A stretch of DNA of 60,802 nucleotides from contig JACSRX010000044.1 of the NCBI GenBank assembly GCA_014879535.1, positions 1 through 60,802 on the forward strand, given 5' to 3'. The stretch is from Chthoniobacterales bacterium (lineage in GTDB: Bacteria; Verrucomicrobiota; Verrucomicrobiia; Chthoniobacterales; JACTMZ01). Below the pieces are notes generated by a model. It searched no databases, had not been told where the DNA came from, and worked only from the letters and a program-made list of their open reading frames with translations. This document shows, one piece after another, positions 3,141 through 48,074 of this stretch. Position numbers and translations under genes: made by a program. Each line of letters opens with the position of its first letter. Within the stretch, counting starts at the first letter, position 1.

Positions 3141-4736
3141 ATGTTCAAATTCTTGCATCGGCAGCAGTTGGTGAAGAAGGGCCTGGCTTGCGGGAAATCG
3201 CGCCTCCGCGTCGAGGAGAGTCCGTGGCGGGAGGCCCTTGCCTGCGGATGGCTTCCGCGCGTGGCGGTCTTTGCCGCCTTTGCCGTGGGCCTCGGCTTTC
3301 TGATCTTCACGGGCGACCAGCAGGACCAGCCGCTCAAGAAATACCTGATTTGCCTGCTCGTTTTCGGCATTTCCATCGCGCAATTGTGGGTCAACCACCC
3401 GACGGCGTTCTATCGGAATTCGAGCCTGGCGCTGATTTACGGGATCCTCCTTCTGCAGTTGGGCGCGATCAAGGGGCTGCTCGTGCTGGCCGACAGCGGC
3501 CGGATCGACCTGCAATTGGTGCCGCTGCTCATACCCTACGCGCTCGCGCCGCTGGTGTTTTCGGTCCTGCTCGGGAGGCACCTCGGTTTGTTCGGCGCGG
3601 TGGCGGCGAGTTTGTGGGGTGCGTTTCTCATGCCGGTCACCGACACGGTGTTCCTGGTCATCTCGCTGATTTCCGGTGCGGTGGCGGTTCTTTTCACCCT
3701 GCAGGTGCGCAAGCGCAGCCAGCTCATCCGCGCCGGACTCTATGTCGGGATCGCGGTGTGGATGCTGGCGGCGATCTTCGGCCAGATCGGGCCCGCCTTG
3801 GTCTCGGCGCCCGGCCTCACCGATTGGGCCATGGTCGGCATGCAAACCCTCGCGGCATTCACCGTGGGAGTCGGCACGGCCATCATCGTGAGCGGCATTT
3901 TGCCGATCCTCGAACACATCTTCGGCATCACCACCGACATCTCCTGGCTTGAGGCGGCGGATTTGAACCACCCGTTGCTCAAGCGCATGACGCTCGAGGC
4001 CCCGGGCACTTACCACCACAGCCTCGCCGTGGCCAACCTCGCGGAGGCCGGAGCGGAGGCCATCGGTGCCAACCCGACCATCTGCCGCGTGTGCGCCTAT
4101 TTCCACGACATCGGCAAGTTGGTGAAGCCGGAGTATTTCACGGAGAACATGGCGCAGGGAGTCAATCCGCATGACGATCTCGCGCCGTCCATGAGCGCAC
4201 TCATCATCATCTCCCATGTGAAGGAGGGGGAGGACCTGGCTCTCAAGCACCGGCTCAATGACCTCGTGGTGGATGTGATCCGCGAGCACCACGGCAACTC
4301 GCTCGTCCGCTTTTTCCACCAGCGCGCCCTGCAGCAGGCTGATGACGCGCGCCTCGGCGGCAAGATCATGAATCTCCGGGCGGAGGATGTTCCGGCGGTG
4401 CGCGAGGAGAATTTCCGCTATCCGGGTCCGAATCCCCAGACACGCGAGAGCGGGATCATCTGCCTGGCCGACGCGGTGGAAAGCGCTTCGCGCAGCTTGC
4501 AGCGGCCGACACCGCAGAGGGTGGAGGATTTGGTGGACGAGGTGATCGAGCTGAAAATGGACGAGGGGTTGCTCGACGAATGCCCCCTGACGCTGGCCGA
4601 CATCCGGAAACTCGCCGCCAGTTTCCGCTTCACCCTGCTCAACATGCTGCACAGCCGCATCGCCTATCCCCGGGACGATGTGAAGTCCGAGACGAAGGCG
4701 ACGCGCAAAACCGAGGGGTCCGGGTCCGCCGCCTGA
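3141..4736 (+). CDS. Membrane-bound HD-domain phosphohydrolase (PgpH/7TM-HD type, short form)
   Basis: A 531-residue protein. Residues ~41-255 form about seven to eight hydrophobic helices, and residues ~275-510 form a cytoplasmic HD domain with YHHS (291-294), the metal-binding FHDIGK (His322-Asp323) and REHHG (381-385). The architecture is that of 7TM-HD proteins, whose Listeria member PgpH hydrolyses cyclic di-AMP. Location just before ybeY also fits, because 7TM-HD genes are commonly adjacent to ybeY. It is shorter than typical PgpH (about 700-850 residues): the large N-terminal extracellular 7TMR-HDED sensor is absent, with only ~40 residues before the first helix. Substrate (c-di-AMP) is inferred from the family. 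The start ATG at 3141 follows a 76-base gap after pgk. Confidence 0.88.
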   Translation: MFKFLHRQQLVKKGLACGKSRLRVEESPWREALACGWLPRVAVFAAFAVGLGFLIFTGDQQDQPLKKYLICLLVFGISIAQLWVNHPTAFYRNSSLALIYGILLLQLGAIKGLLVLADSGRIDLQLVPLLIPYALAPLVFSVLLGRHLGLFGAVAASLWGAFLMPVTDTVFLVISLISGAVAVLFTLQVRKRSQLIRAGLYVGIAVWMLAAIFGQIGPALVSAPGLTDWAMVGMQTLAAFTVGVGTAIIVSGILPILEHIFGITTDISWLEAADLNHPLLKRMTLEAPGTYHHSLAVANLAEAGAEAIGANPTICRVCAYFHDIGKLVKPEYFTENMAQGVNPHDDLAPSMSALIIISHVKEGEDLALKHRLNDLVVDVIREHHGNSLVRFFHQRALQQADDARLGGKIMNLRAEDVPAVREENFRYPGPNPQTRESGIICLADAVESASRSLQRPTPQRVEDLVDEVIELKMDEGLLDECPLTLADIRKLAASFRFTLLNMLHSRIAYPRDDVKSETKATRKTEGSGSAA

Positions 4737-9399: not shown

Positions 9400-10698
9400 A
9401 TGCACGATTTTTCCTACCGCGACGGAGTCCTCCATTGCGAAGGCGTTGCCCTGACTGAATTGGCGGCCCGCCACGGGACACCGCTCTATGTCTACAGCGC
9501 GCGGACCATCCGCGAGCACTACCGCCGGTTGGACGCGGCGCTCGCCGGTCTCGACCACCGCGTGTGCTATGCCATGAAGGCGAACTCCAACCTCGCGGTG
9601 ATCGATCTCCTCGCGCGCGAAGGCGCGGGGTTCGACATCGTCTCGGGCGGTGAACTCTTCCGCGTGCTGAAGGCGGGTGGACGCGCCGACTTGTGCACGT
9701 TCGCCGGGGTGGGCAAGACGCGCGAGGAGATCGAATTCGCCCTGCAGGAGGGGGTTTATTCCTTCAACGTCGAATCGGAACCTGAATTGGCATTCATCAA
9801 CGAAGTTGCGGGGGTCATGGGGAGGAAGGCGCCCGTCGCGTTGCGGGTCAATCCCGACGTTGATGCGCAGACGCACAAATACATCTCCACCGGCAAGAGC
9901 CACAACAAGTTCGGCATCGGGATCGACCGCATCCTCGGTGTCTACGAGCAGGCGGCGGCTTTGCCGAACTTGGAACTCCGCGGAATCCAGACCCACATCG
10001 GGTCGCAGATCCTGGAGACCGACCCGTTCGTGGAAGCGCTCGGAAAACTCGCGCCCATTGTGGCCGAGTTGAAGGCGCGTCACGGGATCAAGTTTTTCAG
10101 CATCGGTGGCGGGGTTGGCATCATCTACCACGGCACTTTGGCGAGCGGATCGTCCGACTGGTGGGAAAGCGGGACCGACCCGAAGCGCATCGGCTTTGAT
10201 GACTACGCAGCCGCCATCAGACCGCTCCTCGAGGGGTTGGGGTTGAAGATCCTTCTCGAGCCGGGACGAAGCCTTGTCGGCAATGCCGGCGTGCTGCTCA
10301 CCACCGTGCTTTACGTGAAGCAGACGCCCGCGAAGAGTTTCATCATCACCGATGCCGGCATGAACGACCTGATCCGTCCCGCGCTTTACGAGGGGCACCA
10401 CGAAATCGTGCCGTTGCGCGAACCATCCCCGGAGACGCCGGTCCGGAATGTCGATGTGGTGGGGCCGGTTTGCGAGAGCGGGGATTTCTTCGCCCAGGAT
10501 CGTCCGGTTGCCGACCTTTCGCCCGGTGACGGTGTGGCGCTGCTCAGCGCGGGGGCCTACGGATTCGTCATGGCGTCGAACTACAACTCACGCAGGCTGC
10601 CCTCGGAGATTCTCGTGGACGGAAGCCGGGCTGAGGTCGTGCGGGAACGGCAGACGTGGGACGACCTCGTGGCGGGTGAGAAGATTCCGGGCCGCTGA
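9400..10698 (+). CDS. lysA: Diaminopimelate decarboxylase
   Basis: PLP-dependent enzyme that converts meso-diaminopimelate to L-lysine, the last step of lysine synthesis. The 432 residues have the alanine-racemase-like barrel with CYAMKANSN (PLP Lys60), the glycine-rich GGGVG (236-240), EPGRSLVGNAG for the PLP phosphate and the catalytic CESGD (Cys358) donated across the dimer. Length and order are normal for LysA. It is a single gene between the DoxX gene and a convergent DUF1460 gene, with only 14 bases between the two stops. Ornithine/arginine decarboxylases share the fold, but the VCESGDFFA motif is typical for DAP decarboxylase. Confidence 0.95.
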   Translation: MHDFSYRDGVLHCEGVALTELAARHGTPLYVYSARTIREHYRRLDAALAGLDHRVCYAMKANSNLAVIDLLAREGAGFDIVSGGELFRVLKAGGRADLCTFAGVGKTREEIEFALQEGVYSFNVESEPELAFINEVAGVMGRKAPVALRVNPDVDAQTHKYISTGKSHNKFGIGIDRILGVYEQAAALPNLELRGIQTHIGSQILETDPFVEALGKLAPIVAELKARHGIKFFSIGGGVGIIYHGTLASGSSDWWESGTDPKRIGFDDYAAAIRPLLEGLGLKILLEPGRSLVGNAGVLLTTVLYVKQTPAKSFIITDAGMNDLIRPALYEGHHEIVPLREPSPETPVRNVDVVGPVCESGDFFAQDRPVADLSPGDGVALLSAGAYGFVMASNYNSRRLPSEILVDGSRAEVVRERQTWDDLVAGEKIPGR

Positions 10699-10712
10699 CC
10701 GGTCCCGGGTTT

Positions 10713-11618
10713 TCAGCGTGCGGCCAGCGGCCTGCGATCGGGAAGGTCGAGCGGGCGCACCACGTAGATTCCGGCGTGGGTGCTGAATCTGTTGAGATAG
10801 CTGCTGAGCCGGTCGTCGAGGAGGACCTTGCGGTGGTTTTTCGAGGCGTGGAGGAAGCGGAGAACGCCCTTGTTGTCGCGCGAGGCGAGGCCGACATGGG
10901 ACGTGTAGGCTTCGTGCCAGTTGGTGACGATGCAGATGATGTCGCCGTTGCGCAGTTTCGACTCGATCTTGGGGACCTGCGATTTCGGGATGTAGGTGAT
11001 CCCGCGCCGCGAGAGTTCCCTTTCGATGCGGATGAATTCCGGAACCATGGACGGATCGGCCCGCAGTTGCCGGAACAGGTGGGGCTTTTTCCCCATGTAG
11101 CGCATTTCACGGTGCAGGGGGACACCGCCGAGTGACGGCGTGACGTCCCGAACGAGTCCGCGCCGCTGGTTGTCGCCCATCCAGTCTTCGAGATGATGCA
11201 GCCGCGAATCGAACTTTCCGGTGCAGCGGCCGTTCCGATACCGGTCGATTTCGATGAGGCGCAACATCTCGCGGGGCGTGTAGGGTGGGGGGTGCAGCGC
11301 CACGAGGCGTCCCATGGCGAGCGAAATCTCGAACAGGGTCCAGCAGTCCATCCCGTTCATGTTCACCGACGCGGCCTCGATCCGGTCGTCCAACTCCAAG
11401 GTGTAGTTCACATAGGGCGTCCCCTGCAGGGCGAGGGCGAATTTGTTGACCCGTTCACCGAGAGGCAGATTCGCCCAGCCCTCCTCGTAACCCCGCTGCA
11501 TCACCTGCCGGAATTTTTTCTGACCCACAAAGGTCTTGTCCAAGGGCAGTGCGGCGGTCGCGGGTGCGGTGCCGGCGAATGCAGTCAGAGTGAAAAGAAG
11601 GGCGGCGAGATGACGCAT
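10713..11618 (-). CDS. Secreted DUF1460 protein, NlpC/P60-like amidase fold
   Basis: Start at 11618 gives 301 residues beginning with a clear signal peptide (MRHLAALLFTLTAFAGTAPATA), so it is exported. The mature part has the DUF1460 pattern: MNGMDCWTLFE with the presumed nucleophile Cys92, and HEAYTSHVGLA with the presumed catalytic His241, in a papain-like arrangement. Structures of the family show an NlpC/P60-type cell-wall amidase fold, so a role in peptidoglycan fragment cleavage or recycling is likely but inferred. A TATGGT eight bases before the ATG could be a -10, without a good -35. The reading frame extends to 11963, but that part overlaps tRNA-Ala. Confidence 0.85.
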   Translation of the reverse strand: MRHLAALLFTLTAFAGTAPATAALPLDKTFVGQKKFRQVMQRGYEEGWANLPLGERVNKFALALQGTPYVNYTLELDDRIEAASVNMNGMDCWTLFEISLAMGRLVALHPPPYTPREMLRLIEIDRYRNGRCTGKFDSRLHHLEDWMGDNQRRGLVRDVTPSLGGVPLHREMRYMGKKPHLFRQLRADPSMVPEFIRIERELSRRGITYIPKSQVPKIESKLRNGDIICIVTNWHEAYTSHVGLASRDNKGVLRFLHASKNHRKVLLDDRLSSYLNRFSTHAGIYVVRPLDLPDRRPLAAR

Positions 11619-37867: not shown

Positions 37868-40441
37868 TCAATCTGCGGAGTTCTCGGCTTCGTCCTCCTG
37901 GCTCTGGCTCACGACGGGGGCCATCGCCTGGAGTTTTTCGCCATCGTCGAGGCCGATGAGGCGGACACCCTGGGCGTTGCGGCCGGTCATGCGAATCTCG
38001 GCCACACGGGTGCGCACGCTCTGGCCGCCCGAGGTGATGAGCATGATCTCGTCGCTTTCACGGACGCTGAGCGCTCCGACGACCTCCCCGGTCTTTTCCG
38101 TGACCTTCATGGTGATGATGCCCTTGCCCCCGCGGCCTTGGAGGCGGTATTCGTCGAACTCGGTTCTCTTGCCGACGCCGTGGGCTCCAGCCACGAGCAG
38201 GGTGGTGTCGGGGACGACAAGGGCGGCGCCGACAACATGGTCACCCTTCGCAGGGCGGATGCCCCAGACGCCGGTGGCGGTGCGGCCCATGTCGCGGATG
38301 TCCTCTTCGCTGAAGCGGATGCTCATTCCGGCCTTGGTGATGAGCACGATCTCATTCTCCCCGTTGGTCATGAGGGCGGTGATGAGTTCGTCGTCCTCCT
38401 CGATGTTGATGGCGATGATGCCGCCCTTCCGGATGTTGCGGTAGGCGGAGAGGTTGGTCTTCTTGATGACACCCGACTTGGTGGCGAAGAGGATGTGCAG
38501 GTTCTCGTCCCACGTCTCGTCCTTGCCGGCACCGCTCTTGGCGGTGATGCGCAGGACGGCGGCGATTTCCTCACCGGGTTTGAACTCGAGCAGGTTGGCG
38601 ATCGAGCGTCCCTTGGCGGCGCGGCCCATCTCCGGGATGTTGTAGGCCTTCTCGACGTAGCAGCGGCCCTTCTTGGTGAAGAACACGAGGTAGTCGTGGG
38701 TGCTCGCGGTGAAGAGGTGCTCGACGAAATCGTCCTCCTCGTTCTCCGAGGCGGCCTCGCGTGTCTGCATCCCGATGACGCCCTTGCCGCCGCGCTTCTG
38801 GGCGCGGTAGGCGCTGACGGCTGTGCGTTTGATGAAGCCGCGGTGGGTGACTGTGATGATGCAACCCTCGTTGGTGATGAGGTCCTCGATGTTGATCTCG
38901 CCTTCGTCGGGGACGATGTCGGTGAGGCGGGGGCCGGCGTATTTGCTTTTGATCTCGCGGAGCTCGGTTTTGATGATGTCGAGCACGCGCTCCTCGCGGG
39001 CGAGGATGTCGAGAAGGTCGTCGATGGTGGCCAGCAGGTCCTTGTATTCCGAGAGAACCTTGTCGCTCTCGAGTCCGGTGAGCTGGTAGAGGCGAAGTTC
39101 GAGGATGTCGTCCACCTGCTGTTCGGTGAGGAGGTATTCCCCGTCGGTGAGGCGCGCCTCGCTGCGGATCTTGATCCCGAATTTCTCGACCTGTTTGCGG
39201 GTGAACTCGAAGGCGAGAAGCTTCACCTTGGCCTCCTCGCGGTTCTTCGAGTTGCGGATGATGCGGATGAAATCGTCGAGATTGGCGAGGGCGATGAGGA
39301 AAGCCTCGAGCTTCTCGGCGCGGGTCTCGGCCTCCCCGAGCAGGTGTCGGGCGCGGCGCAGGACGACTTCGCGGCGGTGCTCGATGTAGCAGGCAATGGC
39401 CTCCTTGAGCGAGAGGAGCTTCGGCTTGCCGTGGTCGATCGCCAGCATGGTCACGGCGAACGAGCTTTCGAGCGCCGTGTGCTTGTAGAGGTTGTTGATG
39501 ACGACCTTCGGATTGGCGTCGCGCTTGAGCTCGACGACCACGCGCGTGTTTTCGTCCGACTCGTCACGGATGGCGCTGATGTCGGTGATCGTCTTCTGGT
39601 TGACGAGGTCGGCGATGCGCTCGACGAGGGTGGCGCGGTTGACGTTGTAGGGGATCTCTGTGATGACGATCTGCTCGCGGTTGCCCTTGAGTTCCTCGAC
39701 CCCGGCCTTGCCTCGCACCTTGACCGAGCCGCGTCCGGTCTCGAAATACTGCCGGATGCCGCCCACGCCGCAGAGCTGGCAGCCCGTGGGGAAGTCGGGT
39801 CCCTTGACGTGCTTCATCAGCCCGTCGAGCGTGATGTCGGGCTTGTCGATCTGGGCGCAGATGGCGTCAATGATCTCGCCGAGGTTGTGCGGCGGCATGT
39901 TCGTCGCCATGCCCACGGCAATGCCGGTGCCCCCGTTGACGAGAAGGTTGGGGAAGGCGGCGGGAAAGACGACGGGTTCGGTGAGCCGCTCGTCGTAGTT
40001 CGGGACGAAGTCCACGGTGGACTTGTCCATGTCTGCCATGAGGGCCGTGCCGAGGTGGGTGAGGCGCGCCTCGGTGTAACGCATGGCGGCCGGCGGGTCG
40101 CCTTCGACAGACCCGAAGTTGCCCTGGCCATCGACGAGCGTCTCCCGCATGGCCCATCCCTGGGCCATGTGCACGAGGGTGGGGTAGATGACCGCCTCGC
40201 CATGCGGGTGGTAGTTACCGCTGGTGTCGCCGCAGATCTTTGCGCACTTGATGTGCTGCCGTCCGGGGAAGAGCCGCAGGTCGTGCATCGCGTAGAGAAT
40301 GCGGCGCTGGGCGGGCTTCAATCCGTCGCGCGCGTCGGGAAGCGCGCGGGAAATGATGACGGACATGGAGTAGTCGAGGAAGGAGCGTGACATCTCCTCC
40401 GCGACATCGATCGGTTCGACTTTTTCGTTCTGCGTATACAC
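37868..40441 (-). CDS. gyrA: DNA gyrase subunit A
   Basis: Breaks and rejoins the DNA gate during negative supercoiling. 857 residues from a GTG start. DARDGLKPAQRRILYAM, the active tyrosine Tyr122 (AAMRYTEARL), the coiled-coil/tower region and six C-terminal beta-propeller blades are present. The GyrA box reads QKRGGKG, which favours gyrase over topoisomerase IV. The quinolone-contact positions are Ala83 and Pro87 (GEAVIYPTL) rather than Ser/Asp, counting as in Escherichia coli because Tyr122 aligns exactly. gyrB is not adjacent. Confidence 0.95.
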   Translation of the reverse strand: MYTQNEKVEPIDVAEEMSRSFLDYSMSVIISRALPDARDGLKPAQRRILYAMHDLRLFPGRQHIKCAKICGDTSGNYHPHGEAVIYPTLVHMAQGWAMRETLVDGQGNFGSVEGDPPAAMRYTEARLTHLGTALMADMDKSTVDFVPNYDERLTEPVVFPAAFPNLLVNGGTGIAVGMATNMPPHNLGEIIDAICAQIDKPDITLDGLMKHVKGPDFPTGCQLCGVGGIRQYFETGRGSVKVRGKAGVEELKGNREQIVITEIPYNVNRATLVERIADLVNQKTITDISAIRDESDENTRVVVELKRDANPKVVINNLYKHTALESSFAVTMLAIDHGKPKLLSLKEAIACYIEHRREVVLRRARHLLGEAETRAEKLEAFLIALANLDDFIRIIRNSKNREEAKVKLLAFEFTRKQVEKFGIKIRSEARLTDGEYLLTEQQVDDILELRLYQLTGLESDKVLSEYKDLLATIDDLLDILAREERVLDIIKTELREIKSKYAGPRLTDIVPDEGEINIEDLITNEGCIITVTHRGFIKRTAVSAYRAQKRGGKGVIGMQTREAASENEEDDFVEHLFTASTHDYLVFFTKKGRCYVEKAYNIPEMGRAAKGRSIANLLEFKPGEEIAAVLRITAKSGAGKDETWDENLHILFATKSGVIKKTNLSAYRNIRKGGIIAINIEEDDELITALMTNGENEIVLITKAGMSIRFSEEDIRDMGRTATGVWGIRPAKGDHVVGAALVVPDTTLLVAGAHGVGKRTEFDEYRLQGRGGKGIITMKVTEKTGEVVGALSVRESDEIMLITSGGQSVRTRVAEIRMTGRNAQGVRLIGLDDGEKLQAMAPVVSQSQEDEAENSAD

Positions 40442-42187: not shown

Positions 42188-43180
42188 ATGGACAAGGTGG
42201 AATTCGGCAAACGGCTGCGGGCTTGGTTCCGGCGTCACGGACGCGACCTGCCATGGCGCCGGACACATGACCCGTATGCGATCCTGGTCAGCGAGATGAT
42301 GCTGCAGCAGACGACCGTGGCGGCGGTGATGCCGTATTTCGGGCGTTGGATGCAAAGGTTTCCATCGGTCCGCGAGCTGGCGGTGGCGGAGGAGTCCGAG
42401 ATCTTGGCGCTGTGGCAGGGGCTCGGTTACTACCGCCGCGCACGGCATCTGCATGCCGCGGCGAAGCGGGTTGTTTCGGGCACGGGATTTTCGTGGAGTT
42501 ACGACGGGTTGCGCGCGCTTCCCGGCGTGGGCGATTACACGGCCAATGCCGTGCGGGCATTCGCCTTCGACGAACCGGTGCCCGTGCTCGATGCCAATGT
42601 GATCCGTGTGGTGGCGCGTTTGTTTGCGCTGCGTGCCCCCGTGGACTCCGCCAAGGGCTTGTCCGCGGTGCGGTCGAAATTGGAGGGGATTCTTCCGGAA
42701 CGAGGTGGGAGGGAGTTCCTTTCGGCGCTGATGGAACTGGGTGCCCTCGTTTGCCGTGCCGGCCGTCCGGATTGCCTGTTGTGCCCGGTGAAAAAATTCT
42801 GTGCGGCAAAATCTCCCGAGAAACTTCCGATCAAGGCGCCGAAGGTGCCGATGAAAGCGCGAACCGAGCATGTGGCGTGGGTTGGCGGCAGAAAGACCGT
42901 CCTGCTGCAGCAGTCGGAAACACGACGCTGGACCGGTCTGTGGAGATTGCCCCCTTTGGAGGTTGAACCTCTTCCCGGCCCTGCGGCTACATTGACCTAC
43001 AGCATCGTCCGCGAGCGCGTGACACTGAAGGTGCACCGGGTGACGCGCCGCCTCGTGGCGGCAACCGGCGAGCCGCGTAGGGCATTTCCCTTGGAGGAAT
43101 TGACCCGGATCGCCATTCCCACGCCCCACCGCAGGGCGATTGCCAAGATGCTTCGGGAGGAACATATTCAGGGTTCATGA
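42188..43180 (+). CDS. mutY: A/G-specific adenine glycosylase MutY
   Basis: Removes adenine mispaired with 8-oxoguanine. ATG at 42188 gives 330 residues. The N-terminal domain has LPWRR and SEMMLQQT with catalytic Glu36; the helix-hairpin-helix [12 protein letters not shown] and [10 protein letters not shown] carry catalytic Asp135. The 4Fe-4S cluster ligands are Cys189, 196, 199 and 205. The C-terminal NUDIX-like 8-oxoG recognition domain (from ~235) is shorter than in E. coli but has the WRLPP loop. The last four bases overlap trpB. Confidence 0.94.
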
Positions 43181-44388
43181 CTGCCGCGGAGTTCGCCAGC
43201 CAGCCCGACGCCGGGGGCCATTTTGGTCCCTACGGTGGCGTGTTCGTGCCCGAGACCCTGATGACGGCGCTCGAGGAACTGACCCGCGAATACGAGGCCT
43301 CCCGGAGGGATCCCGCGTTCAAGGCGGAGTTGGACCGGCTGCTGCACGATTTCGTCGGGCGCCCCACGCCGCTTTATTTTGCCGAGCGACTCACGGAGCA
43401 TCTCGGCGGCGCGAAGATTTACCTCAAGCGCGAGGACCTGCTGCACACCGGCGCGCACAAGATCAACAACGCCATGGGCCAGATCCTGCTGGCCAAGCGC
43501 ATGGGCAAAAAGCGGATCATCGCCGAGACGGGCGCCGGACAGCACGGTGTGGCCACGGCGACCGCCGCCGCTCGGTTCGGCATGGAATGCGTGGTTTACA
43601 TGGGTGAAGTGGACATGAAGCGGCAGGCGCTCAACGTCACCCGCATGAAATTCCTCGGGGCAAAGGTTATTCCCGTCACCGCGGGGCAGGCGACATTGAA
43701 GGAAGCGGTCAACGAGGCCATGCGCGATTGGGTCACCAATGTCCGCTCAACCCACTACATCCTCGGCACCGCCTACGGGGCGCATCCGTATCCCATGATG
43801 GTGCGCAACTTCCACCGCATCATCGGCGAGGAAGCCCGCCGCCAGATCCTCGAGCGCGAGGAACGCCTGCCCGACCTCCTCGTCGCCTGCGTCGGCGGCG
43901 GCAGCAATGCCATCGGCCTGTTTTATCCGTTCCTCGAAGATTCCGGTGTCTGCATGGTCGGCATCGAGGCGGGGGGTGAGGGGATCAAACCGGGGCGCCA
44001 CGCGGCACGCTTCCAAGGCGGCAAACTCGGCGTCTTGCAGGGCTGCAAAACGTGGTTGCTGGCCAATGACGACGGCCAAATCGAGCTCACGCATTCCGTC
44101 TCCGCCGGCCTCGACTACGCCGCCGTCGGCCCCGAGCACAGCTACCTCCGCGACGCCGGGCGTGTGGAATACGACTACGCCACCGACGACGAAGCCCTCG
44201 CCGCCTTCCAGACCCTGGCCAAGGTGGAAGGCATCATTCCCGCCCTCGAAAGCGCCCACGCCGTGGCCCACGTCATCAAAGTCGCCCCCAAGATGGCCAA
44301 GGACCAGATCATCCTCGTGAACCTCTCCGGCCGCGGCGACAAGGACGTTCAGCAGGCGGCCGAGTTCGTCTTCGGCGGGACGGGGTAG
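43177..44388 (+). CDS. trpB: Tryptophan synthase beta chain
   Basis: Condenses indole with serine. 403 residues; [18 protein letters not shown] Lys95 in [20 protein letters not shown], the PLP-phosphate loop GGGSNAIG and the end LSGRGDKD are all present, placing it in the standard TrpB1 group that works with TrpA. It overlaps mutY by four bases (ATGA). No trpA follows; the next gene is an unrelated orphan, so trpA must be elsewhere or this chain acts with a distant partner. Confidence 0.97.
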
Positions 44389-44453
44389 GCAGATACGCTT
44401 GAAGATGCCAAATTCTGAAGCTTGCTGAAGTGCGCACTCCGGCAGTTCGTCCT

Positions 44454-44482
44454 TTGAGAAAGAGCACTAAGCGAAGTAAGGT
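44454..44482 (+). promoter_or_regulatory. Putative promoter of the orphan gene at 44491, leaderless spacing
   Basis: TTGAGA (44454-44459), 17-base spacer, TAAGGT (44477-44482), ending eight bases before the GTG. The TAAGG could alternatively be read as a weak ribosome-binding site. Confidence 0.45.
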
Positions 44483-44490
44483 TCGTCGAC

Positions 44491-45471
44491 GTGTCGAAAA
44501 AGGCCTTAATCGCGGGAGGGTGCTTGACGCCTTTTGCGATTCTCTTCTTTGCCATCTTTGCGCTGTGGCTTTTTCAACCTTTCGCGAAAACAATTTGCGT
44601 CCACATTACTGACGACGCTGGCAAGGAGGTCGCCAACGCGAGTGTAGAGTTTGGTTGGACAACCGGCGAGCCGTGGGGGCCGAGTGTGCGTTCAGGAACT
44701 TCTCATTCACGCACCACTAAGACAGACTTGATGGGCCGTGCTTCCGCCCGGATCAGTGAGGAGAGTCTTGTTGGCATATCCGTTACTCATCCGCAGCACT
44801 GGCGTTCATCCGTCTCGGTTGTCGGTCAGGACCTCTCTCGTCACGGGACTCCAGAGACAGCCCTTGAAATCGTGCTGAAACGTATCATCGCGCCAAAGCC
44901 CCTAATCGCGAAGAGGGCATACATCTGGCTTCCAACACTCTCTGGTGAAGCTGCCTATGATTTTGTCGTAGGCGACCTCGTTGCCCCGCATGGCAAAGGC
45001 GTCTCGCCAGATGCGTGGTTCGTGTGGAGTCAGGAAGATTACATTGCTGGTCGACGGGACCCTCGAAGCTGGGATCTGTCTTTTCGAGAACCCGGCTCTG
45101 GCATCATTGCTCGATTCTACAGCACCAAAAGCGAGGTCGTGCGGTCCGAATTGGCTTTTGATCAGTCCGCACCGATCAGTGGCTACTTGCCGTCATTGCG
45201 CTCTGCAGAAGTTGCTGCAGATCCGCGCGGAGAACGAGAGTGGCATCAGGAGCCTTTGTATTACTTGCGCATAGTCCGTGACGGCGGAGCTTTATATGGT
45301 GTAATTGCACCTCCTGAGCCCGAGATTTCTTTCTTTACGAACCACGCGCGACCACAGGTGCGTCTTACCTATGTTCTCAATCCCGCAGGTGATCTGGGCT
45401 TGGAGCCGGCCCTCGGTGCAATAAGCTTTCCCCGAGCCAACCCGTATGAGGAGCCATTTAAGCTTTGGTAA
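44491..45471 (+). CDS. Orphan membrane-anchored protein of unknown function
   Basis: 326 residues from a GTG. An N-terminal helix (residues ~6-32, LIAGGCLTPFAILFFAIFALWLF) anchors it, with the rest outside. Residues ~36-130 look like a carboxypeptidase-regulatory/Ig-type fold (ICVHITDDAGKEVANASVEFGWTT, GRASARISEESLVGISV). The remainder is beta-rich without a motif I know. It is visibly more AT-rich, with codons such as aga, tta and cta that neighbours avoid, which suggests recent acquisition or relaxed selection. It lies between trpB and a 413-base gene-free stretch. Confidence 0.72.
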   Translation: MSKKALIAGGCLTPFAILFFAIFALWLFQPFAKTICVHITDDAGKEVANASVEFGWTTGEPWGPSVRSGTSHSRTTKTDLMGRASARISEESLVGISVTHPQHWRSSVSVVGQDLSRHGTPETALEIVLKRIIAPKPLIAKRAYIWLPTLSGEAAYDFVVGDLVAPHGKGVSPDAWFVWSQEDYIAGRRDPRSWDLSFREPGSGIIARFYSTKSEVVRSELAFDQSAPISGYLPSLRSAEVAADPRGEREWHQEPLYYLRIVRDGGALYGVIAPPEPEISFFTNHARPQVRLTYVLNPAGDLGLEPALGAISFPRANPYEEPFKLW

Positions 45472-45884
45472 GCAGCACGCGGAGGGAGAACGGGTGAGAT
45501 CAACAAATCTCAACACAGGCTCAGTGCTTTCTTACCCCTCGGCATTGAGTTGGCGAAGTGGTGCTGCGGCAAACCCGAGTTTCCGCCTCGACCGGGTTCA
45601 CGGCCGCCTTCGCCGTGCCGACGTAAACGCTCAAGTGTTTCCCCGGTCGTGGTCGAGGACGGTCTGGATGTCGCCCCGGAGGGGAGGCGAAATCGTGGCG
45701 CGGTCTGATGCTGGGAAGTGGTTAGGAAGCCAGAAGTCTCTCCCAGTGGTCCTGCCCCCGCACCGTTGACCATCTGGCAAGGCAAGGTTCCGGGTGGATG
45801 GTGTTGGCTGGTTGTCGCGTTCGGGTCTGATGGCTACGTTTGAGGGTGAGGGGAGCCGTTGGTGCATCCCTCAGTCTCTCGCCC
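45472..45884. other. Gene-free stretch rich in inverted repeats
   Basis: Both strands carry only overlapping short frames with no plausible product. The central part (45586-45690) can fold into nested hairpins and is listed separately. Nothing else was recognised; a decayed gene or mobile-element remnant is possible. Confidence 0.6.
45586..45690. ncRNA. Candidate structured RNA or palindromic element
   Basis: CCTCGACC (45586-45593) is perfectly complementary to GGTCGAGG (45651-45658) and encloses two hairpins. The first is CACGGC/GCCGTG (45599-45604/45612-45617), and the second is AAACGC/GTGTTT (45625-45630/45635-45640, one G-U). A competing perfect pairing joins CGACCGGG (45589-45596) with CCCGGTCG (45642-45649). 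A third hairpin TCGCC/GGCGA follows (45671-45675/45686-45690). No conservation data, so it remains a candidate. Confidence 0.3.
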
Positions 45885-48074
45885 ATGGCCAAGGACCGCT
45901 CCACTCCATCCATCGAACACGACCCCGTGCTGTTCGGCGCGGACGTGACGGCGGGGATCGTGGCGGTGGAGTTCACGGCGCCCGACCGTGTGCGGGTTTA
46001 CCGGCGAGAGGGGGAGGAGACGGTGGTTGAGGAGGCTGTGCACAAGCCTTTCGCGTGGGCATCCGAACCTGCGCCGGGGGAGTCGTTCGAGCTGGATGGA
46101 CCGGGGGCGTTCCGCTTTCTCGTGACATTCGAGGACGCGGCCGCGTTCGCCAAGGCCAAGACGAAATACAAACGGGAACTCTTCACGCTCAGCGACCTTG
46201 CCCATCAATACCTGCTGCAGAGCGGACGCACGCTCTTCAAGGGAATGTCGTTCGGCGACCTGCGGCGGATGCAGGTGGATATCGAGACATTCACCGGCGC
46301 GGACGGGGTGATGTCCGCGGCTGCGAAGGATCCGCTTCTGGCCATCGCCTTGAGTGACAGCTCGGGGTGGGAGCAGATTCTGGTCGTCGAGGATCCGGAG
46401 GACGAGGCGCAGGAGCGCGCGGTGCTGGAGAAGTTCGTCGAGGTTGTGCGCGAACGCGACCCGGATGTCCTCGAGGGGCACAACATTTTCAAGTTCGACC
46501 TGCCTTATCTCGAAACGCGGGCGCGCAAGCTCGGGGTGAAACTCGAATTGGGCCGCGATGGGAGCCTGTTGCGCTCGCATCCGTCACGCCTGCAGATTGC
46601 CGAGCGCCTGATCCAATACCGGAAGTTCGAGATTCACGGACGCCATGTGGTGGACACGCTGTTTCTCCTCCAGTTCCACGATGTCGGGGCGCGGGAGCTC
46701 GAAAGCTTCGGGCTCAAGGCGGCGGCGCGGCATTTCGGCGTGGCGGAGGATGACCGCGTGGAACTCGGCGCGCGGGAGATCACGGAGATGCATTCCATGA
46801 ACCGGAAGGTTTTTGAGACATATGCCCTGCAGGACGTGCGCGAGACGCGCGCGCTGTCGGCCGCGCTGAGTCCTGCATGGTTCACTCAGGCCACGATCTT
46901 TCCCTACAATTACCAGGATGTGGTCATTCGCGGGAACGCGACCAAGATCAACAGCCTCTTCCTGCGCGAATACCTGCGGCGCGGGCATGCGATCCCGGCG
47001 CTGCCGGATGTGCGACGCTTCGAGGGGGGCTACACCGACATCTTTTTCACGGGTGTGGCACGGAACGTGTGGCACTGTGACATCGCCTCGCTTTACCCTT
47101 CGGTCATGCTGGCCTTCGGGTTTCTGCCCGGTCCTGATGCGCTCGGCGTGTTCGGTGGATTGCTGGCGCAGCTGCGGAAGTTCCGTCTGGATGCCAAGGC
47201 GCGCATGCGGTCGGCGTCCGGTCCGGAAAAGGCGCATCTCGACGCCCTGCAAAGCACCTTCAAAATCCTGATCAACAGCTTCTACGGGTATCTCGGGTTC
47301 GCGCAGGGGAATTTCGCCGACTTCGAGGCGGCGGCGGCGGTCACTGCCAAGGGACGTGAACTGCTGCGCGGCATGGTGGACTGGCTGCGTCAGCGCGGGG
47401 CCGAGGTGATCGAGATCGACACGGATGGCATCTATTTCGTGCCGCCGGAGGACGCGACATGGGAAGGGCTCTACGGGGAACTGGCGGCGACGCTGCCCAA
47501 TGGCATCGAGGTGGAGTTCGATGCGCGGTATGAGGCGATGTTCAGCTACAAGGCAAAGAACTACGCGCTGCTCGGGGAGGGCGGGAAGCTGTCCATCAAG
47601 GGCGCGGCGCTGAAGTCACGCGGATTGGAAAAGTTCCAGCGCCTCTTCATCGAGCGCGCGGTCCGTGCCCTGCTGGAGGGAGGACCGGAGGTCATCCCGG
47701 CCATGCATGCGGAATTTGCCGCAGCCCTGCGGGAGCGGAAATGGGAGCCTGAAATGTTCGCCAAGACCGAGGCGCTGCAGGACTCCCTCGACGCCTATCA
47801 GAAGAAGATCGCAGCTTCCTCGCGCAACCGCTCGGCCGCCTTCGAGCTGGCCCTGCGCAGCGGACGGAAGATGCAGGCGGGCGACCGCATCACGTATTAC
47901 ATCACCGGGACGAAAAAGAGCGTGACCGCCTACGAAAACGCAAAACTTGCGGAAGAGTGGAGCCCGGACAACCGAGACGAGAACACCGCCTACTATCTCG
48001 CGAAGCTCGACGACCTTGCCTCAAAGTTCGAAGCCTTCGTCCCGGCCAGCGCGGGTGGTGACAGGCTGTTGTGA
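45885..48074 (+). CDS. Family B DNA polymerase (Pol II-like, compact)
   Basis: ATG at 45885 gives 729 residues. The 3'-5' exonuclease motifs are intact: Exo I VDIETF (Asp132, Glu134), Exo II GHNIFKFDLPYL (Asp205) and Exo III YALQD (Tyr313, Asp317). Polymerase motif A is DIASLYPSV (from Asp399), motif B KILINSFYGYLG (from Lys460), and motif C IDTDGIYF (Asp512-Asp514) has Gly where most have Ser. It is ~50 residues shorter than E. coli Pol II, with a short palm insertion. Probably an accessory polymerase for translesion or repair; no partner genes are adjacent. In-frame start 45840 is less likely because ATG 45885 begins the conserved region. Confidence 0.9.
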   Translation: MAKDRSTPSIEHDPVLFGADVTAGIVAVEFTAPDRVRVYRREGEETVVEEAVHKPFAWASEPAPGESFELDGPGAFRFLVTFEDAAAFAKAKTKYKRELFTLSDLAHQYLLQSGRTLFKGMSFGDLRRMQVDIETFTGADGVMSAAAKDPLLAIALSDSSGWEQILVVEDPEDEAQERAVLEKFVEVVRERDPDVLEGHNIFKFDLPYLETRARKLGVKLELGRDGSLLRSHPSRLQIAERLIQYRKFEIHGRHVVDTLFLLQFHDVGARELESFGLKAAARHFGVAEDDRVELGAREITEMHSMNRKVFETYALQDVRETRALSAALSPAWFTQATIFPYNYQDVVIRGNATKINSLFLREYLRRGHAIPALPDVRRFEGGYTDIFFTGVARNVWHCDIASLYPSVMLAFGFLPGPDALGVFGGLLAQLRKFRLDAKARMRSASGPEKAHLDALQSTFKILINSFYGYLGFAQGNFADFEAAAAVTAKGRELLRGMVDWLRQRGAEVIEIDTDGIYFVPPEDATWEGLYGELAATLPNGIEVEFDARYEAMFSYKAKNYALLGEGGKLSIKGAALKSRGLEKFQRLFIERAVRALLEGGPEVIPAMHAEFAAALRERKWEPEMFAKTEALQDSLDAYQKKIAASSRNRSAAFELALRSGRKMQAGDRITYYITGTKKSVTAYENAKLAEEWSPDNRDENTAYYLAKLDDLASKFEAFVPASAGGDRLL

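Follow-up and report, generated by a model that had tools for sequence, protein, structure and literature searches.

Competing stems upstream of a family B DNA polymerase gene: probable chance pairings in a variable spacer

The 413 nt that precede a family B DNA polymerase gene (polB) in a Chthoniobacterales genome are very probably ordinary, fast-changing spacer in a variable trpB-polB slot, with stems that pair by chance, one or two traces of decayed mobile repeats and no RNA switch. The spacer lies in a window of 60.8 kb (60,802 nt), by which we mean the whole stretch of DNA analysed, from a genome (G000) of 3.17 Mb in 97 contigs that is 95.9% complete. An earlier note had described nested, partly competing inverted repeats in this spacer and had suggested that they form a cis-regulatory RNA of polB, a small RNA or the remnant of a palindromic mobile element. 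The stems are real as letters and are not a real feature. Because the spacer folds no better than shuffled controls and was not found before polB in close relatives, it looks like ordinary spacer. The features discussed below are:

43177-44388, + strand: trpB-like gene (PALP domain), left border of the variable slot; adjoins polB in relatives
44491-45471, + strand: 326-aa ORF, likely accessory (GC3 0.55; codon score -0.18)
45472-45884: gene-free spacer of 413 nt between the 326-aa ORF and polB, with no coding, Pfam, Rfam, promoter-like or terminator-like match
45500-45531, - strand: degenerate copy of a dispersed motif, the full form of which borders a Y1 transposase gene in G148, another genome of the order
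45586-45658, + strand: two mutually exclusive 8-bp stems with the common word CGACC (45589-45593), read as chance
45671-45690, no strand assigned: third hairpin; here 45673-45706 is similar to one half of a palindromic repeat in the distant genome G138, by chance or as a decayed copy
45885-48074, + strand: polB (Pfam), right border of the slot

Pairings and folding of the spacer

The description of 45472-45884 as free of genes holds, as no frame carries a coding signal: GC by codon position is flat (0.61-0.64, compared with 0.66/0.42/0.81 in polB), and codon scores range from -0.37 to -0.49 over the six frames, compared with 0.47 for polB and 0.54 for trpB, two of the five genes on which the score was trained. 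The three ORFs within the 413 nt gave no Pfam match at E ≤ 0.1, the region had no Rfam match at the gathering cut-off or at E ≤ 5, no sigma-70-like or intrinsic-terminator-like site was found in the spacer, and phages yielded no match to it. Plasmids yielded a single match, of 30 bases at 45654-45683 (E 0.03), to an Abi family gene carried by a Streptomyces plasmid; it was read as chance. The polB start is the ATG at 45885, and the equivalent position also suits the relative L042; most of the polymerase's relatives that carry a name are Verrucomicrobiota MAGs, with three MAGs among the closest labelled Chthoniobacter flavus.

All pairings described between 45586 and 45690 can be read from the letters, namely the perfect outer 8-bp stem (45586-45593/45651-45658), the alternative perfect 8-bp pairing with overlapping arms (45589-45596/45642-45649), the two inner hairpins (45599-45617 and 45625-45640) and the third hairpin (45671-45690). 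In the first stem the partner of CGACC (45589-45593) is the GGTCG at 45651-45655, in the second it is the GGTCG at 45645-45649, and since one CGACC word serves both, the competing stems are not independent. What looks like a switch is a 5-base word whose second copy starts six bases after the first.

Inverted repeats, counted as 8-bp arms with loops of 3-70, are not unusual here: 5.9% of 2000 shuffles had at least two per 413 nt, as did 12% of 302 window tiles. The earlier reading is favoured by the rarity of such a pair of repeats in stretches like the hand-picked 105 nt (1.1% of 5000 shuffles, 0.4% of 1214 tiles) and by that of a competing pair per 413 nt (0.36% of 5000 shuffles), but these local figures are after the fact because the earlier reading had scanned the whole 60.8 kb. 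Over the entire window, 97 inverted repeats were present, compared with 94 ± 10 in 40 shuffles, as were 2 competing pairs, compared with 1.4 ± 1.5; the other pair, at 40144, lies inside a gyrase-like coding region. Switch-like competition as a feature is left without support.

Fold energies, controlled by dinucleotide shuffles, gave the same picture, and the expected excess of stability was seen neither for the whole spacer nor for 45586-45690 on either strand. The 413 nt reached a minimum free energy (MFE) of -169.2 kcal/mol compared with a shuffle mean of -170.8 (z 0.24; 58 of 100 shuffles as good), and 45586-45690 reached -44.1 compared with -44.15 on the + strand (z 0.02; 103 of 200 as good) and -43.3 compared with -40.15 on the - strand (z -0.86; 39 of 200 as good). 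As low a fold as that of the 105-nt core was found in 16% of 607 window tiles and in 34% of 202 GC-matched tiles. Values of z < -2 occurred in 2 of 68 sliding windows, compared with 12 of 240 random windows (60 shuffles each), the lowest being -2.6 at 45492-45551.

The slot between trpB and polB

The polymerase is present in 31 of the 57 genomes searched, the window's own included, and in nine of the 11 genomes of the genus (G008 and G009 gave no match). The spacer is not: among 56 relatives no match to the 413 nt was found at E ≤ 0.001, with up to 12 candidates scored per genome, and in none of the seven genomes of the genus where the DNA before polB is readable (L004-L009 and L031; protein 81-85% identical) could anything be aligned there, L010 beginning inside polB. 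The few weak matches in L005, L006 and L008 fall inside polB. Against 66 polB loci, blastn gave a best E of 0.44. Conservation in relatives was thus not found in any of the seven upstream regions or 56 relatives, and what was searched contained no relative carrying the same spacer.

Where trpB is in view, the distance to polB differs widely. The window's gap (44389-45884) measures 1496 nt, whereas those of L041, L042 and L076 measure 141, 140 and 141 nt (L076 belongs to the same genome as L042) and those of L044 and L069 approximately 1640 and 2090 nt. The window's gap had no match at E ≤ 5 to these five gaps, which come from four genomes. Searching the 1496 nt against 212 other genomes of the order, with two candidates scored per genome, returned matches of 24-39 bases in seven genomes (best E 2e-4), and the one that falls within the 413 nt is the G138 match treated below. 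The trpB-polB gap is therefore a variable slot, from about 140 nt to about 2.1 kb, of unrelated contents. Immediately before polB, L044 and L069 share a repeat (about 70-86 bases), of which the L044 slot has a second copy; small ORFs in that slot resemble toxin-antitoxin genes by eye.

The 326-aa ORF that adjoins the spacer looks acquired, judging by its sequence: it has weak relatives in two of 209 other genomes of the order, and its Pfam match, to Big_1, is below cut-off. Its GC3 of 0.55 compares with 0.81-0.89 in polB, trpB and the gyrA-like gene.

These observations bear on what the spacer could otherwise be. That it encodes a cis-acting polB leader RNA, which controls polymerase expression by switching between two pairings, is suggested by the location of the exclusive stems, about 230 nt before polB begins, and by the rarity of a competing pair in shuffled 413-nt sequences, but we consider it very improbable, given that the spacer has no excess stability, no counterpart upstream of polB in the seven same-genus genomes, no Rfam match and no promoter-like or terminator-like site, and that no arm was found that reaches the start codon. 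Such a leader would moreover be expected to persist in some of the relatives compared. A narrower version, in which a young, species-specific leader switches CGACC between the duplicated GGTCG words and arose in a recently acquired spacer, with decayed mobile repeats as part of its material, is the least credible reading of all. A small RNA gene within the spacer fares no better than the general leader: a gene-free 413 nt with hairpins would accommodate one, but the same lack of promoter-like and terminator-like sites, of an Rfam match and of any match in the 56 relatives stands against it, and 45586-45690 folds like shuffles on both strands. Slightly less improbable, though still unlikely, is that the spacer is what remains of a gene, a reading favoured by the acquired look of the neighbouring ORF (GC3 0.55, few relatives) and opposed by the lack of coding signal in all frames, by the three ORFs without a Pfam match and by tblastx against the 66 polB loci, where the best E among the 20 matches listed was 0.019.

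Traces of mobile repeats

The proposal of a mobile-element remnant found some support, mainly for a stretch outside the hairpins it was based on. At 45500-45531 the window resembles C66:130743-130774 of its own genome (88% over 32 bases, E 6e-4). The 15-mer core, GTTGAGATTTGTTGA, is exact at five places in the genome, the window included, and occurs at three more with one or two mismatches; its reversed control occurs at three places at up to two mismatches. Elsewhere the core continues into CAGACCCCTTTT, and TTTGTTGACAGACCCCTTTT has eight copies in the genome at up to two mismatches, five of them exact, whereas the window copy is without the tail GACAGACCCC and forms no significant hairpin (z -0.90 and -0.16). 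The dispersed motif TTTGTTGACAGACCCCTTTT lies on contigs C16, C52, C66, C74 and C95 (L034, L036-L038, L079, L080). At L036 and L037 (C66, ~135300-135900) it adjoins repeated copies of one gene-end fragment, an arrangement that by eye resembles a tandem array of truncated ends.

The motif occurs in 11 of 210 genomes, the window's own included, compared with one genome for its reversed control; the ten others, none of the same genus, mostly have two mismatches at every copy. In one of these, G148, inverted copies at 282-301 and 1372-1391 of contig C91 lie on either side of an ORF of 345 aa in which a Y1_Tnp domain scores 45.4 bits (cut-off 23), so that inverted flanking of a Y1 transposase gene is seen for the motif family there and not for the window copy. 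Copies in G182 and G056 adjoin stretches that match only residues 297-343 of the G148 transposase, as truncated ends should. A tight link is opposed by the same-genus genomes G002, G007, G008, G009 and G010, which have relatives of the G148 transposase and no motif copy at up to two mismatches. In the window's genome, at 95.9% completeness, neither a Y1_Tnp above cut-off nor a match to the G148 protein was found. We infer from these sequence comparisons that the window copy is probably the decayed end of a Y1-transposase-type element.

Two further candidates from the same genome were set aside. An insertion-sequence reading of the motif had been suspected because two copies on C16 are inverted and 2.5 kb apart; the ORFs between them are unlike a transposase by eye, and no Y1_Tnp scored above cut-off. 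A Y1-like ORF on C49 (L141 1201-1767, ~52730) scored 19.7 bits for Y1_Tnp (cut-off 23) and was unmatched by the G148 transposase; in this genome it may represent a Y1 transposase of a different type.

Around the third hairpin the case is weaker. That a dispersed palindromic repeat has decayed at 45673-45706, leaving one half still readable, is possible but doubtful. In its favour, 30 of 34 bases are identical to G138 (44.6 bits, E 2e-4), where the counterpart is one arm plus spacer of a perfect 20-bp palindrome with related repeats nearby, and against the same G138 contig 150 random pieces of 413 nt from the window all stayed at or below 31.9 bits. However, this was the single such match among 212 other genomes, with about 0.04 expected at that E-value over 213 genomes; when the window alone is considered, the arm's match was equalled in 8 of 100 shuffles; the second, complementary arm is missing at 45673-45706; and a search of 399 kb of the own genome (~13%), allowing up to two mismatches, turned up the arm nowhere else, while the whole of that genome gave no strong copy of the repeat (best E 0.15). 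Further copies in the genome, which the earlier note had proposed to look for, thus exist for the 45500-45531 motif and were not found for this stretch. In G138 (L177, on C138) clustered, nested palindromic repeats of the GCCCCGGAGGGGCGACGGA and GTCCCGGAGGGACGAAGGAATGTAGCC types occupy ~3850-4200 and 10430-10960.

Taken as ordinary spacer in a variable slot, the 413 nt probably arrived with accessory DNA that included the 326-aa ORF. They would carry, at 45500-45531, the end of a Y1-transposase-type element in decayed form and perhaps also keep a palindromic-repeat trace at 45673-45706, both short stretches presumably descending from mobile repeats. The stems at 45586-45658 would be chance matches in GC-rich DNA, in which two GGTCG words starting six bases apart mimic a switch, and the spacer as a whole appears to have no sequence-specific function. 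Convincing nested, competing stems can arise by chance in GC-rich spacer DNA, and checking the slot before the same gene in relatives settles such cases quickly. By-products of the analysis are the variable trpB-polB slot itself and the scattered terminal repeats of Y1-transposase type, which occur in a genome where their transposase was not found.

Comparison with known systems

With riboswitches and other cis-regulatory leader RNAs the window has in common two mutually exclusive stems upstream of a gene. It differs in the traits by which a structured cis-regulatory RNA is recognized: the spacer was not found conserved upstream of orthologous genes, its fold is not more stable than dinucleotide shuffles, and it matches no known RNA family in Rfam, at gathering cut-off or E ≤ 5.

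The 45500-45531 motif invites comparison with REP elements and their RAYT transposases. REPs are described as short sequences that lie between genes, usually in >100 copies, and are associated with a Y1 transposase gene flanked by inverted copies (PMC2817692). The motif is likewise short and dispersed between genes, with inverted copies at a Y1 transposase gene, but it is without the GT(A/G)G head, its eight copies at up to two mismatches are far below the >100 usual for REPs (PMC2817692), and the window copy, as noted, has no significant hairpin.

Terminal inverted repeats of the TIRYT type are the other comparison, for 45500-45531 only. The consensus published at TIRYT-type Y1 genes (TnpA-REP subclass 2.1) is GGGG[AT][CG]A[CG] (PMC6006769). 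Measured against it, the own-genome copies read GGGGTCTG, one base off, and the window copy is without the consensus part at its outer end; the own genome is also without a cognate transposase above cut-off. The likeness lies in G148, where the motif stands inverted around the Y1_Tnp gene and GGGGTCAG fits the published consensus (PMC6006769).
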